Below, piece after piece: positions 1 through 50,226 of a stretch of 64,000 bases of DNA. Position numbers and translations under genes: made by a program. The stretch comes from Stratiformator vulcanicus (GTDB taxonomy: Bacteria > Planctomycetota > Planctomycetia > Planctomycetales > Planctomycetaceae): contig NZ_CP036268.1 in NCBI RefSeq assembly GCF_007744515.1, positions 3,270,712 to 3,334,711 of the forward strand, read 5' to 3'. How positions within the stretch are numbered: position 1 is the first letter of the stretch; the number at the start of each line of letters is the position of its first letter. The notes below the pieces were generated by a model. The model worked only from the letters and a program-made list of their open reading frames with translations, was not told the DNA's origin and made no database searches.

Positions 1-1403
1 ATCGAGGTTTCATCCCGATACTCGCCGAGCCGAATCGATCGCCCGGCCTTGCCCATGGCCTCGCCGAACTTCAGATCGGCAGGGGCATCGTAAACGGGGT
101 TCCCGCCAAGGATCAGTAACGTTTCGACAGCGCCAGCATTCAACTGATCGACCAGTAGCCCGAGCCCTTCGGGTCCCGCATCGGCATCCGCCCGCGGATC
201 TTCGGTCAACACAACCGTGCTGCCGATCGCACCGAGCTTTTCATTAAGCCGCATCACGCGAGCGTGAACTTCTGGCGGCTGAGTCCGGCCAGCAACGACG
301 AGGCCCGATTCCCCAGCATCCCGAAGGTCTTCGACAAGGGCTTTAACAAAGGGAAGCTCGGAGTCGGCCTCGCCACCACCAAGCACTTTGTCGACCTGTG
401 ACTCGATCTCGGTAAGCAAGCCGGCGATCTTCCCCGACTGAATCGGCAGGCGATGGTCGGCGTTCGCACCGGTCTGCGAATACTGACTCTCGGCCACGTA
501 GAGCCGATTCATCTTCTTTCCCGACTCGGGCGACCGCCGCGCGGCCCAACCGGCGATATTCACGAGCTGCTCGCCGCCCCAGCCAATGAAGTCACCATCG
601 AGCGATACAATCACATCCGCCTTCTTCAGCCGCAGATGCGGCCTCAATCGACGGCCAAAGGCGAGCTCCATGCCTTTCGCAACATTACTCTCGGCGAGCG
701 GGCTGTACTCGTACCACGTGCATTGCGGATAGCGCTGGCGGATCAATGCCTCAATCCGGGCACGCGTCGGTGACGAAGAAATATCCGCCAAAATCGCCAG
801 ACCTTCGCCGTTGTTGTCGATCACCGTCGACCTCAACTCGGCCATGAGCGAGGAAACATTCGCCTCGTCACGGGGCTTGCCACCCTCGGCGGTCATCTCG
901 ACAGGCGGCCCCATCCGATCGGGATCGTAGAGATTCAGGATCATGCCCTGAGCGTATTGATCGCTCGGCGCGAAGCGGTGGGGCTTTTTCTTGCCACGGT
1001 CGCCCCCGACCGCCGCCTTGAACTGAGGATGATCAGGGTTGCCGTCGACCTTAATCGGCCGACCGTCCATGCAGGTGACAAGCAACCCAAGCGAATGACC
1101 GCCCAACTCCCGAGCTGACGCAAAATACTGCGGCTCACCTGCCGTGCGATTGCCGCCCTGATCAGCGAACGGCAGCAGTTCTTCATTCGCCCAGCGGCAA
1201 CCGGCGACGCCGGCGAGCGAGAAAGAGGCCCCCATCAATTGCAGCCAGCGGCGACGCGAGACGCCCTCAGGAAACTCCGAAGCTCCCTGCGGAAACTCAC
1301 GATGCAGGAACTCGTCGAACTCCGGGCTCTGCTGAAACTCTTTCAAGCTCCGCCAGTAGCGAGGTTTCGCGGTCGTCTGCGGGGGTTTGGAAACGTCGGT
1401 CAT
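1..1403 (-). CDS. actB: Alternative complex III subunit ActB-like, Tat-type molybdopterin-oxidoreductase-like protein (3' end outside window)
   Basis: About 467 codons are visible from an ATG at 1401-1403; the reading frame stays open to the window edge, so the C-terminus is missing. The N-terminus has the family hallmark: a YWRSLKEF segment, then SRRRWLQLMGAS followed by an LAGVAGC stretch, a variant twin-arginine signal. The remainder resembles the catalytically dead molybdopterin-oxidoreductase domain of ActB, whose C-terminal part (not visible) normally carries Fe-S clusters. In the family, ActB is the periplasmic Fe-S subunit of the quinol:cytochrome c/oxidase oxidoreductase that replaces complex bc1. 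It starts 84 nt after the pentaheme actA, the usual actA-actB order. The identity is firm from start, signal and neighbour; cofactor content cannot be judged here. Confidence 0.85.
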   Translation of the reverse strand, partial: MTDVSKPPQTTAKPRYWRSLKEFQQSPEFDEFLHREFPQGASEFPEGVSRRRWLQLMGASFSLAGVAGCRWANEELLPFADQGGNRTAGEPQYFASARELGGHSLGLLVTCMDGRPIKVDGNPDHPQFKAAVGGDRGKKKPHRFAPSDQYAQGMILNLYDPDRMGPPVEMTAEGGKPRDEANVSSLMAELRSTVIDNNGEGLAILADISSSPTRARIEALIRQRYPQCTWYEYSPLAESNVAKGMELAFGRRLRPHLRLKKADVIVSLDGDFIGWGGEQLVNIAGWAARRSPESGKKMNRLYVAESQYSQTGANADHRLPIQSGKIAGLLTEIESQVDKVLGGGEADSELPFVKALVEDLRDAGESGLVVAGRTQPPEVHARVMRLNEKLGAIGSTVVLTEDPRADADAGPEGLGLLVDQLNAGAVETLLILGGNPVYDAPADLKFGEAMGKAGRSIRLGEYRDETS

Positions 1404-1487: not shown

Positions 1488-2180
1488 TTAGCGGTGGCAG
1501 GTCGAACAATCCGTATTCGGTTTGATGCCGTGAAGCTCAGCCAGCTCTCGCCCAAACTCTTCAGCCGTCTTCCCCTCGGGCGGCTGCCACGCCAGATTCG
1601 TGACTTCGTCAACCGGCCGAATATTCGGATAGGGATTGCGGTGGCAATTGAGACACCAAGCCATATTCAGCGGTGAGACCCGCTCGACGACTTCCATCGT
1701 GTCGACGCGTCCGTGACAACTTACGCAACTAACGCCGCGTGCGACGTGAGCCGAGTGATTGAAGTAGGCGTAGTCCGGCAGGTCATGCACACGATCCCAC
1801 TCGACCGCAGCCCCCGTCGCCAGACTCTCACGCACGGGAACGAGCTTCGGGCTATTCGTGTGAACGGCCACCAAGGCATTCTGGCCAGCCGCGTCTTTCT
1901 CATTGCTGTGGCAGTTCGCGCACGTTGAGGTCGCCGGAATGTTGGAGTGAGCCGCGTGTTCGACCGCCGTGTGGCAGTAACGGCAGTCGATCTTCATCTT
2001 GCCCGAGTGCAACTTATGACTAAAGGGAACCGGCTGCTCCGGCTTGTACCCCGTCACCAAGTTTGCGGGGGACGCGCCATAAACGGCGAGACCACCAAGA
2101 TAAATTGCACCGATACCGATCGCGCCGATCGTCGGCACAACCAGTGAATTGACCCAAGCGGGAAATAGAAATCGGTCCAT
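1488..2180 (-). CDS. actA: Alternative complex III pentaheme cytochrome c subunit ActA
   Basis: A 230-residue protein with one N-terminal membrane segment (about residues 13-35) and five CxxCH heme c motifs starting at residues 66, 87, 152, 176 and 225, the last three residues from the end. In the family, ActA is the membrane-anchored multiheme subunit that moves electrons from the quinol site toward the terminal acceptor. I chose the ATG at 2178-2180 because it places the hydrophobic anchor right after MDRFLFPAW, as in homologues; the frame is open further upstream but that extension looks non-coding. The gene leads the complex III operon, with actB 84 nt downstream. A RegA-type inverted repeat lies about 113-132 nt upstream of this start. 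Confidence 0.92.
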
Positions 2181-2292
2181 CGCTGCCGAACACTTCCGCG
2201 GAACTGTTTCGTCACCAAACTCGCGAGGCAGCCGCACCGGACGACAAACCTCGAATGCAGTCGCCGAAGTCTAAGGGACGCATCCCGAAATC

Positions 2293-2312
2293 GCGACAAG
2301 CAGCATTGTCGC
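2293..2312. promoter_or_regulatory. Putative RegA/PrrA-type operator (inverted repeat)
   Basis: GCGACAA and TTGTCGC half-sites are separated by 6 nt, giving a perfect 7-bp inverted repeat. Proteobacterial RegA/PrrA/RegR regulators recognise GCGNC...GNCGC half-sites with variable spacing, which this matches. It sits in the 184-nt gap between the regA-like gene and actA, upstream of the complex III operon. No U-tract follows on the minus strand, so a terminator is less likely. Binding is inferred. Confidence 0.5.
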
Positions 2313-2364
2313 AGGTGCGCGTAAAAATGCCGCAGCGATCCTGATGGCCAGCTGGCAGCCAAAC

Positions 2365-2931
2365 TCAGGGACGCATCTTTTTCAATTTGCGCTGCAGCGT
2401 GCGGCGTTCGATACCAAGCAGGCGCGCGGCTTGAGAAATGTTCCCGCCGCTATCGGAGAGCACCTGCTGAATGTGTTCCCACTCTGCTTCGGCCAGCGTC
2501 TGCGGGGAGTAGTCGACCGGTGAAGGCTCTTCGCCGTCTTCATGTTTTTGAAAGGCAGCCAGAATCTCATCCGCATCGGCGGGCTTTGTCACGTAATTGA
2601 CCGCTCCGGCGTGCATGGCGTCGACCGCATTGGCAATGCTCCCGAACCCTGTCACCACGATCGCTCGGGTTTCCGGCGATGTCCGCTGAAGATCGCGAAC
2701 CAGATCGATCCCCGACCTCCCCGGCATTTTCAGGTCAATGACGGCCATCGCGGGACGCGCAACGGGCATCAAAGCCATCGCATCGTCATAACTTCCGGCC
2801 GTGTGCGTTTGGAAACCTCGCTCTCGGAGTGCTTCCGCCAGCCGCTCGCGAAGCAGATCATTGTCGTCAACGATCAGAACACAATTGGTTCGGACCAGCG
2901 TGGAATCGCTCAGTGTTGAATTGACCTGCAT
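2365..2931 (-). CDS. regA: RegA/PrrA/ActR-family response regulator with Fis-type HTH
   Basis: 188 residues: an N-terminal receiver with the acidic pair in VLIVDDND, phosphoacceptor Asp66 in VIDLKMPG and the conserved Lys in the VTKPAD turn, then a short linker and a C-terminal Fis-like helix-turn-helix (GNISQAARLLGIERRTLQRKL). This length and layout are those of the RegA/PrrA/ActR redox regulators, not the larger NtrC type. The start at 2929-2931 is favoured by a strong GGGAGGA ribosome-binding site just upstream. The sensor kinase gene lies 107 nt upstream on the same strand. In proteobacteria this regulator controls respiratory and photosynthetic operons; control of the downstream complex III genes is inferred from position and the adjoining inverted repeat. 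Confidence 0.88.
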   Translation of the reverse strand: MQVNSTLSDSTLVRTNCVLIVDDNDLLRERLAEALRERGFQTHTAGSYDDAMALMPVARPAMAVIDLKMPGRSGIDLVRDLQRTSPETRAIVVTGFGSIANAVDAMHAGAVNYVTKPADADEILAAFQKHEDGEEPSPVDYSPQTLAEAEWEHIQQVLSDSGGNISQAARLLGIERRTLQRKLKKMRP

Positions 2932-3038: not shown

Positions 3039-4421
3039 TTATTCGATCGGAGATACCGGCAGCGAAACGACGACGGTCGTTCCCAGCGATTTTGTTGAGG
3101 CGATTCGCAACTCTCCGCCCAATCGCTCGACAACCGCCCGAGCCAGAAACACGCCCAGTCCGGTCCCGCTTCCCGGCTCTTTCGTCGTAAAGAACGGATC
3201 GCCGACCCGCGCCAATACTTCAGGACTCATCCCTTCACCTTGATCATCGATATTCATGCTCAACCGATTGTGATCGCAGCTCCCCGTGATCGTGACATCA
3301 TGCCCGTCCGGAGACGCCGAAATCGCGTTTTGGATCAATCCGCGTATGGCTTGCGCCGTCACTACGAAGGGCAACAGCAGTTTTCTCTGCGCGATCTGTT
3401 TCGGCAAGCGCGTCCTAACACGATCCCCGTTGCGCAAGCTGCTGAGAATTTCGGACAGCAACTCGTCGACGGTGACCTCGGTCAGTTCTTCCCCCATCGC
3501 CTGACCGGCGTCGAGCGACATGCGGTCCAGAATCCCGCGGCATTGATCAAGTTCCGTCCTGATGAGTGCGATATCTTTCGCGATCCGGCCGTCCTTATCA
3601 ATTTGCTCGACCCGGCGCTCGACTTCCCGCGCGACCACGGCAATAGTCGACAACGGATTTGCCAACTCATGCGCGGCACCGGCCGCGAGTGTGCCTAACG
3701 CTTCCAATTTCTGAGCACGCGTGAATTCATCTTGGTAGGCCCGAATTTCGCGGTCGTGTCGTTTCAATTGGTCACGCAACAGCATGGTGAAATAGACGAT
3801 CGTAATCGAGCAGGCGATGAAGGCGACGATCGACCCGAATTGGACGAGCGGAGTTCCACCACTTTGGCCACGCGTGACCGCAGCCGACGACACCAACGGC
3901 TCTAATTCACGGTGGAAGAATGAAATCAGAATGAAACCGACAATGGCAAAGCTCGTTGCCGTCCACGCCCACTGACGGGGCAGCACGACTGTCGTCAGCG
4001 ACAGATTGACGAAGTAGAAAATGACAAATGGATTCGCCGCCCCGCCTGAGAAGTAGAGCAGGGCAGTCAACATGATCAGGTCGAACAGCATGACCGGTCC
4101 GCAAACGCGAACGGTCACCGGCGCGGGTTCAACGGCCGGATCACCGGGCGGGTGAGTCGCCGACCACAAGCCTAAAAACACGTTTGACGCAGCCGTCATC
4201 CCGATCACGGTCAGCAGCGGCGCCAGCGGCAAAGGCACAGCAAGCACCCATTCGACGAAGCTGATCGTGATGAGTTGGCCGAATGTGGCAACCCAGCGTA
4301 ATTGGACCAGCCACGCCGCGGTCCCGCGCAAGGCCGCAGCGTAGCGCTTCTCAAATCGTGAATCAACGACTCCGGTGGCAAGTGGTCTTCCCAGCAGGAT
4401 GTCGAACCAACGGTGACTCAT
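3039..4421 (-). CDS. regB: RegB/PrrB-family redox-sensing membrane histidine kinase
   Basis: 460 residues with hydrophobic membrane segments over roughly residues 35-215, then a HisKA/HATPase_c kinase core. The family's quinone-binding GGxxNPF motif is present (GGAANPF, residues 126-132). The H-box reads GAAHELANPLSTI with phospho-acceptor His251, and Cys294 in LDQCRGIL sits where the redox-active cysteine of RegB is found. The ATP-binding G boxes DQGEGM and GSGTGLGVFLA are intact. It overlaps the upstream unknown gene by 4 nt (ATGA), so the two are translationally coupled, and it precedes regA by 107 nt. The expected role is sensing quinone-pool redox state and phosphorylating RegA. The assignment is strong; sensing chemistry in this phylum is inferred. 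Confidence 0.88.
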   Translation of the reverse strand: MSHRWFDILLGRPLATGVVDSRFEKRYAAALRGTAAWLVQLRWVATFGQLITISFVEWVLAVPLPLAPLLTVIGMTAASNVFLGLWSATHPPGDPAVEPAPVTVRVCGPVMLFDLIMLTALLYFSGGAANPFVIFYFVNLSLTTVVLPRQWAWTATSFAIVGFILISFFHRELEPLVSSAAVTRGQSGGTPLVQFGSIVAFIACSITIVYFTMLLRDQLKRHDREIRAYQDEFTRAQKLEALGTLAAGAAHELANPLSTIAVVAREVERRVEQIDKDGRIAKDIALIRTELDQCRGILDRMSLDAGQAMGEELTEVTVDELLSEILSSLRNGDRVRTRLPKQIAQRKLLLPFVVTAQAIRGLIQNAISASPDGHDVTITGSCDHNRLSMNIDDQGEGMSPEVLARVGDPFFTTKEPGSGTGLGVFLARAVVERLGGELRIASTKSLGTTVVVSLPVSPIE

Positions 4422-5071
4422 TCGGTCTTTTCCGAATCGAGTTGCGACGAATCGGCATCGGCCTTCTCTGCGCTAGCAGGCTGTGCCACGCCGGTGTTCG
4501 AAACCGCTTCGTCTAACTCAATCTGGTCGTTGTTCGAAGACCGGGCTTCCTTTGAGTCGGGGAGCTGACCGTCGTCACCCTCGCCACTGTCGATCTCGGC
4601 GAATTGAACCTCTCCACGGGAACGTGGTTCGTCGGGAACAACGCGAATCCCTTTTGCTTTCTGCCGGGCGATCTCCTGTCTGACTTTCTTTTGCAATAGT
4701 GCGCTCGTCCAGCCGAGACGTTCGGCCCGCGCGAGCATTTCCCGCTGCATCTTATGCGGCAGCCGAGCCACGGCGGCGTGCGCTGACCAAGACAAACCCT
4801 CCACGCGATTTTCAGCGGGGACGCGCCGCGCGACCGATTCGTAGCGCTGCAACTGATCGGCAGAGACGGCCCCCTCACAAACCTGGGAGAACATTTCCCC
4901 AAAGCGGGCGTCGCCTTGATTCAGCAAGTCCCCGATCCACCAAGGGGAGGCCTGCTGGCACCACAATGCGAACTTCAGCGGCGTTCCCCACTGCTCTAAT
5001 TCGGGGGACCCTGAAACGCCCAACGCAGTCGGGGTTAACTTGAAGGGACCGAGTTGAAGGACGGGAGGCAT
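4418..5071 (-). CDS. Hypothetical protein with ParB-like helical segment, coupled to regB
   Basis: 217 residues with no signal peptide and no membrane segment. Residues about 65-140 are helical and contain a pattern (LSWSAHAAVARLP, then EMLARAERLGW and a basic KKVRQEIARQKAKG) reminiscent of ParB/plasmid-partition type helix-turn-helix proteins. The C-terminal 70 residues are acidic, low-complexity and probably disordered. The start has a GGGAGG site next to the ATG at 5069-5071. The stop overlaps the regB start (ATGA), so it is the first gene of a probable three-gene unit with regB and regA. I do not recognise a precise family; a regulatory or DNA-binding role is only a guess. Confidence 0.65.
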   Translation of the reverse strand: MPPVLQLGPFKLTPTALGVSGSPELEQWGTPLKFALWCQQASPWWIGDLLNQGDARFGEMFSQVCEGAVSADQLQRYESVARRVPAENRVEGLSWSAHAAVARLPHKMQREMLARAERLGWTSALLQKKVRQEIARQKAKGIRVVPDEPRSRGEVQFAEIDSGEGDDGQLPDSKEARSSNNDQIELDEAVSNTGVAQPASAEKADADSSQLDSEKTE

Positions 5072-49731: not shown

Positions 49732-50226
49732 GGTTCTATCCCAACGCAATTGCGAATTATTAATTCCATTTGTTAGCCGCGATTGTAATTCGCCGAGCGG
49801 CGAGCCGCGACGCGACTCAGCGAAACACCCCTGTCCGAAGTCGTGGCAATTCCGCTGCAAAACAATCGCAAATCGGCTGCACCTGATTAACGCGGGGGTT
49901 GTCGCATTGAACCGTCATGTGTCGCGGTCTGAATTGAACCCCTTGAGGTTGCGTCACTGTCGCGGAAATCCGACACGCCCGCGTTGCATTTTGGCCGCAT
50001 GATGCGGAACCACGGTGACTTTTAGAAACGTGGCTTCGCGTGCAACTCTGAAAGTGACTCGAACCGAACTGACTCTTCTGCTTGAACTTAAGTCAAACTT
50101 AGGCTGCGTTAGATGAAAAGGTACGCGGTTTGTGTTTCTTCATCGAGCTTCTACCAAGCGGGGCCACGCCCCAACGCGGATATCGAGAGTCCTTCAGCCA
50201 TCAAAACGCCGACCCCAGTCATCACC
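49732..50226. other. Intergenic region ispD/AAA+ regulator
   Basis: About 495 nt between divergent genes. It contains a possible sigma-54 promoter at 49844-49859 and, if the regulator starts at 50113 rather than 50227, its extra N-terminus. I found no other convincing gene; the short frames here are not coding-like. Confidence 0.4.
49844..49859 (+). promoter_or_regulatory. Candidate sigma-54 (-24/-12) promoter
   Basis: TGGCAATTCCGCTGCA has the required GG-N10-GC spacing and 13 of 16 agreement-type positions with TGGCACG-N4-TTGCW apart from three mismatches. It points toward the AAA+ regulator gene but is 254-368 nt upstream of its possible starts, which is long. Confidence 0.3.

Follow-up and report, generated by a model that had tools for sequence, protein, structure and literature searches.

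Alternative complex III (ACIII) stands in for the bc1 complex in many bacteria. A locus of the planctomycete Stratiformator vulcanicus raises the question of what controls its genes: here a perfect inverted repeat lies between a gene for a RegA-like response regulator and actA, the first gene of an ACIII cluster. Among the matches listed from the open-access literature, we found no regulator of ACIII, and in a paper that names both the complex and RegA (PMC3534657) the latter appears only in the title of a reference. We analysed the stretch of 64,000 nucleotides that contains this locus (the window) together with the corresponding loci of other genomes. The results suggest that the inverted repeat is probably part of a larger conserved switch, by which a redox-sensing regulator would control the main genes of oxygen respiration in planctomycetes.

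A RegB/RegA-like pair beside the genes of alternative complex III

On the minus strand, the genes follow one another in the order LmbU-like, RegB-like, RegA-like, gap, actA and actB. The features of the locus are as follows.

1..1403, minus strand: 5' part of actB, the Fe-S subunit (1103 aa), with 4Fe-4S domains; the gene continues beyond the window
1488..2180, minus strand: actA, multiheme cytochrome c subunit of ACIII and first gene of the cluster (Cytochrome_C7, Cytochrom_CIII)
2268..2273, minus strand: -10-like hexamer TAGACT, 19 nt from box II
2293..2312, minus strand: box II, the inverted repeat and proposed RegA site, GCGAC-AATGC-TGCTT-GTCGC
2319..2333, minus strand: box I, putative second RegA-type site, GCGGC-ATTTT-TACGC, starting 21 bp upstream of box II
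2365..2931, minus strand: RegA-like response regulator, receiver and Fis-type helix-turn-helix (HTH); start codon uncertain
3039..4421, minus strand: RegB-like sensor kinase, with GGAANPF, the H-box AHELANPLSTI and a cysteine in DQCRGIL
4418..5071, minus strand: LmbU-like putative regulator (62.8 bits against the LmbU family, cut-off 125), with a 4-nt overlap with regB

Among curated models, the RegA-like protein matched ActR/PrrA/RegA (NF033791) best, at 158.2 bits, with NtrX next at 91.8, and the RegB-like protein scored 240.6 bits against the ActS/PrrB/RegB model. Both scores lie under the NCBI equivalog cut-offs (250 for NF033791 in NCBIfam and 350 for the kinase model), and we therefore call the proteins RegA-like and RegB-like. 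In an alignment to 3rqi and 1umq, the latter of which we take to be PrrA, the Fis-type HTH of the RegA-like protein carries the recognition helix RRTLQR as in PrrA, and RR-LQRKL is invariant in all nine RegA-like sequences. GGxxNPF, presumably the quinone motif of RegB-type kinases, is invariant together with the H-box histidine and one cysteine (C294) in 10/10 aligned RegB-like proteins, a selection of those found. This cysteine sits between the H-box and the ATP domain and is a candidate redox cysteine. The pair thus resembles RegB/RegA (PrrBA, ActSR, RegSR) in GGxxNPF, the H-box histidine, the redox cysteine, and a receiver joined to a Fis-type HTH with RRTLQR. Unlike those systems, it scores below the equivalog cut-offs, often stands beside actA and, in the window's clade, is accompanied by the LmbU-like third gene. 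The regBA operon probably begins with this LmbU-like gene, whose product had no match in a Pfam search; the gene occupies the equivalent position in L032, L033 and L034, the three nearest relatives, and was detected in four of nine loci of the family.

On the other side of the gap, the genes follow the ACIII operon order of actA cytochrome, actB Fe-S protein, NrfD and ActD, with ActA reaching 70 bits against the QrcA model (cut-off 180). A Pfam search assigned no domain to the next two proteins after ActD, which are 414 and 119 aa long. Further downstream, on one strand throughout, come an SCO-like gene, coxB, coxA and coxC, of which coxA was assigned as Pfam COX1 and the other three by reading their translations. 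Genome-wide, COX1 and cydA each occur once. The actA promoter probably serves an ACIII-oxidase cluster that contains the only heme-copper oxidase of the genome, and the act-cox cluster may be read as one transcript.

The inverted repeat and the gap before actA

The gap between the stop codon of the RegA-like gene (2365-2367) and the conserved actA ATG (2180) is 184 nt long. A preliminary description had placed an inverted repeat, GCGACAA-N6-TTGTCGC, in this gap, and we confirmed it at 2293-2312 as GCGACAAGCAGCATTGTCGC, with 7-nt arms and a 6-nt spacer. The bare palindrome is not beyond chance and is weak evidence by itself, because when the gap was resampled 500 times with a first-order Markov model, 71 of the resampled sequences contained an equally long repeat (perfect arms of at least 7, loop of at most 12). 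The pattern occurs once exactly in the window, and allowing up to two mismatches adds no further site (1 match versus 0.81 expected); in the whole genome the same tolerance gives 42 places, versus 27 for the reversed control pattern. What does exceed chance is the half-site pattern, which is kept at the equivalent place in relatives. Separately, an 11-mer, AGGGACGCATC, occurs at 2274-2284, just upstream of the -10-like element, and again at 2367-2377 in the stop region of the RegA-like gene; this may be chance.

One way in which such a repeat might act is as RNA, by forming a hairpin downstream of regBA that terminates or attenuates transcription, and it can indeed pair as a 7-bp stem. However, no terminator-like site was found in a search of 2150-2400, folding of the gap was not better than that of shuffles (z -0.29), Rfam at gathering scores gave no match in 2000-2600, and the relatives keep half-sites at 5- or 10-nt spacing and not a stem. 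We consider an RNA role very improbable and rejected it.

As DNA, box II can be divided into GCGAC (2308-2312), AATGC, TGCTT (2298-2302; the decayed middle half-site) and GTCGC (2293-2297). Its outer half-site cores, GCGAC and GTCGC, are 10 nt apart, a spacing that would be admissible because RegR half-sites are variably spaced, according to PMC4064962. The three nearest relatives have outer half-sites of the form GCGRC-N10-GTCGC, 19 nt before TAGAAT, TAGGAT and TAGGAT, and their whole box reads GCGGC-N5-G(C/T)CGC-GTCGC. Because these relatives keep the triple with the same 19 nt, the palindrome is read as the outer pair of a half-site triple whose middle member has decayed. Box I lies upstream of box II with 6 nt between them, and the relatives likewise carry a second box, GCGTC-N5-GACGC, 20-21 bp upstream of their box II equivalent. 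By this comparison, the window holds a derived, tandem version of the conserved box.

A point against a RegA-type site is that the window's own gap (L074) fits neither the strict nor the relaxed pattern of the conserved box, owing to the decayed middle half-site of box II. We also built a scoring matrix from 22 sites of other genomes and ranked 127,896 positions in the window with it. Box II came third and box I sixth, or third and seventh when the three nearest relatives were left out, although the score of box II was 9.3 against 21.8-38.1 in the 22 training sites and that of box I was also below all of them. Two other places in the window outscore box II, one of which precedes a gene read as ispD. 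The top match, at 49780-49832 on the minus strand (GTTTC-N5-GTCGC-GTCGC, 19 nt, TACAAT), stands before this putative ispD and is probably a chance match.

The RegR, PrrA and RegA motifs for comparison came from PMC5506826. Published RegA motifs are degenerate; the same paper reports that in At. ferrooxidans their matches lie mainly inside genes, and none in the promoters that RegA binds. The sequence GCGACATTTTGCCGC, from L037 and L058 and also L048, has no mismatch to any of the three motifs. Box I has none to the RegA motif (R. capsulatus; very degenerate, matched on the other strand), one to RegR and two to PrrA, and box II has 3, 4 and 3 mismatches to the RegA, RegR and PrrA motifs. The preliminary description had matched the palindrome to GCGNC/GNCGC half-sites; its outer half-sites have this form, but as a whole box II departs from the published motifs and box I fits better.

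These results could mean that the palindrome is a chance feature of this genome, with box I alone being the working RegA site and box II a decaying relic. The resampling frequency, the lost middle half-site, the absence of a fitting published motif for box II and its AA/TT arm letters, which are not common to the three nearest relatives, are all in keeping with that explanation. Against it, GCGRC, GTCGC and the 19 nt to a TAG-type hexamer are kept in the three relatives although their gaps are otherwise very different, and box II occupies a conserved position relative to the -10-like element. We therefore regard a relic box II as rather unlikely and favour two tandem sites. Placed from the -10-like hexamer, the transcription start would be at about 2261, giving a 5' leader of about 81 nt; box II, at about -51 to -32, would then overlap with the -35 region. 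A search found no sigma-70-type promoter here, as would be expected of an activator-dependent promoter.

Conservation of the box and its link to RegA

We surveyed 170 genomes of the same family, in which the window's genus is represented by the window's genome alone. A close RegA was present in nine of them, the window's included (E <=6.6e-52; next 5.9e-23). In 7/9 loci, actA comes next after RegA and shares its strand; of the other two, one contig stops after RegA and one locus has no actA there. RegB precedes RegA in six of these seven, L037 being the one in which no neighbouring RegB was detected. The family gaps share GCGRC-N5-GNCGC, some with a third half-site directly behind it (GTCGC or AGCGA), and, at a distance of about 24 nt downstream of the N5 box, a TANNNT. 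Box, 23-25 nt and TANNNT occur together in all six family upstreams other than the window (0.00 expected). This layout was derived from the family gaps before its use elsewhere, and the last half-site was widened to GNC[AG]C after L044-L047 had been seen.

In a survey of 392 genomes of the phylum, 34 had a full-length RegA match, three of them in the family (E <=9.2e-64; next 1.4e-37). The 27 new loci of other families had actA downstream of RegA in 12 cases and RegB within the fetched stretch in 25, with no RegB found beside RegA in L061 and L068. Upstream of the RegA-adjacent actA genes, the relaxed box was present in 10/12 (0.79 expected) and the full layout, with TANNNT at 23-25 nt, in 9/12 (0.00 expected). 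We also examined actA genes that do not lie directly behind RegA, some of them at least 1.6 kb from it on the same contig. Of 20 genomes searched, 14 had ActA and six did not, and 12 were usable; the relaxed box was found in 11 of these (1.98 expected) and the full layout in seven (0.01 expected). By contrast, neither the relaxed box (0.68 expected) nor the full layout occurred in any of 33 actA upstreams from family members that lack a close RegA, a control set with a G+C of 0.48 versus 0.62-0.67 and with 16 members from one genus.

Counting one representative per genus (27, the window excluded), the exact GCGAC-N5-GNCGC was present in 18 (0.87 expected) and the relaxed box in 25, and no other half-site spacing from 0 to 15 rose above 4. 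The preliminary description had named a lack of half-site conservation in homologous gaps as what would refute it; these counts, set beside none of 33 controls, point the other way. The distance from the box to TANNNT was 24 nt in 15 representatives, 23 in four and 25 in one (20 in total), and never 15-22 or 26-35 nt. No box was found upstream of actA in L103 and L135, and L050 and L126 have a box without a -10 at the right distance, which may be chance. Left out were loci with short upstreams (L094, 75 nt; L099, 36 nt; and L076, 102 nt only, whose genome carries RegA on a different contig), a distant paralog (L112, E 8e-44), genus duplicates, and L139, L168 and L185, taken as copies of L048, L106 and L104; L033, with no actA on its contig, was dropped from the 27-genus count.

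Of twelve genomes taken from named contigs, nine were planctomycetes; seven of the nine had the relaxed box, none with a -10 at 23-25 nt. One of the seven, L217, repeats the actA of L126 and possibly has a chance box; Botrimarina and Laterigemmans had no box upstream of actA. In L215, L216, L218 and L100 (Rhodopirellula, Stieleria, Rubripirellula and genome G429), actA is preceded by the box GCGRCACAATGTCGC, twice in Rubripirellula, and in none of the four does a TANNNT stand at 23-25 nt, so that their promoters are laid out differently. Myxococcota were considered as box carriers and rejected: their RegA-like genes are close in sequence, yet the box was in 0/6 actA-like loci of three genomes.

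By these comparisons, the conserved element is GCGRC-N5-GNCGC, separated from a -10-like hexamer by 23-25 nt; some lineages add a third half-site. The earlier proposal of a RegA/PrrA-type site at ACIII beside a RegA-type gene thus gains strong comparative support, but the element that is conserved is not the GCGACAA-N6-TTGTCGC palindrome. Given its rigid -10 distance, the box might belong to the promoter of an alternative sigma factor, or be the site of another regulator that travels with regBA, such as the LmbU-like protein, whose gene shares the operon in the window and the three nearest relatives. However, the box has the form of published RegA/PrrA/RegR sites and would reach to about -51, past the usual sigma contacts. 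The LmbU-like gene has a far narrower spread than the box, and the box is missing from the control upstreams without a close RegA. We judge a sigma factor or another regulator quite unlikely, and a RegA-type site remains our preferred assignment.

We looked for other targets of the same kind. Autoregulation of regBA was rejected for now, since eight loci showed no box ahead of this operon. For cydA, the window's genome has a weak GCGCC-N5-GTCGC only, without a -10 at 24 nt, and we rejected it as a target there. Among 15 genomes searched, five relatives had cydA. Upstream of it, L209 has the full layout (GCGGCATCGGGTCGC, 24 nt, TAGACT), L211 and L212 have GCGTC/GCGGC-N5-GTCGC, followed after 24 nt by CAAACT or GAAACT, and L208 and L210 have no box. 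In the window's genome, GCGRC-N5-GNCGC gave 190 and 217 matches versus 284 and 299 for the reversed pattern, and TGYGRCNNNTTGNCRCR gave one match versus four and two for controls. Because the plain box patterns are not enriched in this genome, such counts are uninformative on the regulon.

A proposed redox switch for the quinol-to-oxygen branch

Taken together, we think it likely, with a probability of about 0.8, that the actA gap acts as a promoter in which a pair of RegA-type sites stands in tandem, 21 bp from one another, and through which the RegB/RegA-like pair sets act-cox transcription. This reading draws on sequence, conservation, fixed spacing, co-occurrence with RegA and gene order, from which we infer binding, start site, activation, signal and single transcript. 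A shift in the quinone pool or the oxygen supply would probably lead the RegB-like membrane kinase to phosphorylate the RegA-like regulator, and the phosphorylated regulator would bind the GCGNC/GNCGC half-sites in the actA gap. It would thereby set transcription of act, SCO and cox, the quinol-to-oxygen branch. Because box II ends 19 nt before the -10-like element, at about -51 to -32, it would lie where an activator contacts RNA polymerase, and activation of the act-cox cluster is the likely direction. In R. capsulatus, RegA represses some targets and activates others (PMC5359404), so that either direction may apply at actA. A feedback loop would close, because ACIII oxidises quinol.

The proposed sites resemble those of alphaproteobacterial RegA/PrrA/RegR (R. 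capsulatus, R. sphaeroides and B. japonicum), which, according to PMC5506826, PMC5359404 and PMC4064962, have half-sites of the GCGNC/GNCGC type that the quoted motifs space 5 nt apart, promoters with two or more boxes, and respiratory and redox targets. Some RegA ChIP sites of R. capsulatus have the same form, for example GCGACCGTTCGTCGC at ccoN and GTGACAATTTGTCCC at cydA, and others do not (PMC5359404). Unlike in the alphaproteobacteria, the target here would be ACIII and the phylum is Planctomycetota, the -10 distance is nearly fixed in most lineages tested, and the window's clade has three half-sites in a row. As in the control of ccoNOQP and cydAB by R. capsulatus RegA (PMC5359404), a RegA-type site would stand before terminal-oxidase genes; here, however, the quinol:cytochrome c step is ACIII and not bc1, and is clustered with the sole heme-copper oxidase.

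There is perhaps an even chance that this arrangement holds more broadly, with a RegB/RegA-like pair sensing the (mena)quinone pool across much of Planctomycetota and using an operator at a constant position before the -10 to set, in a feedback loop, the amount of the quinol-draining ACIII and oxidase and, in some lineages, of cytochrome bd as well. If true, ACIII would thereby have its first assigned regulator and operator, as judged from the open-access matches listed. An operator with a near-fixed -10 distance, tied to the presence of a RegA-like protein, would make the regulator, its target and the bases involved open to test in Planctomycetota, a phylum whose transcription control is little studied.
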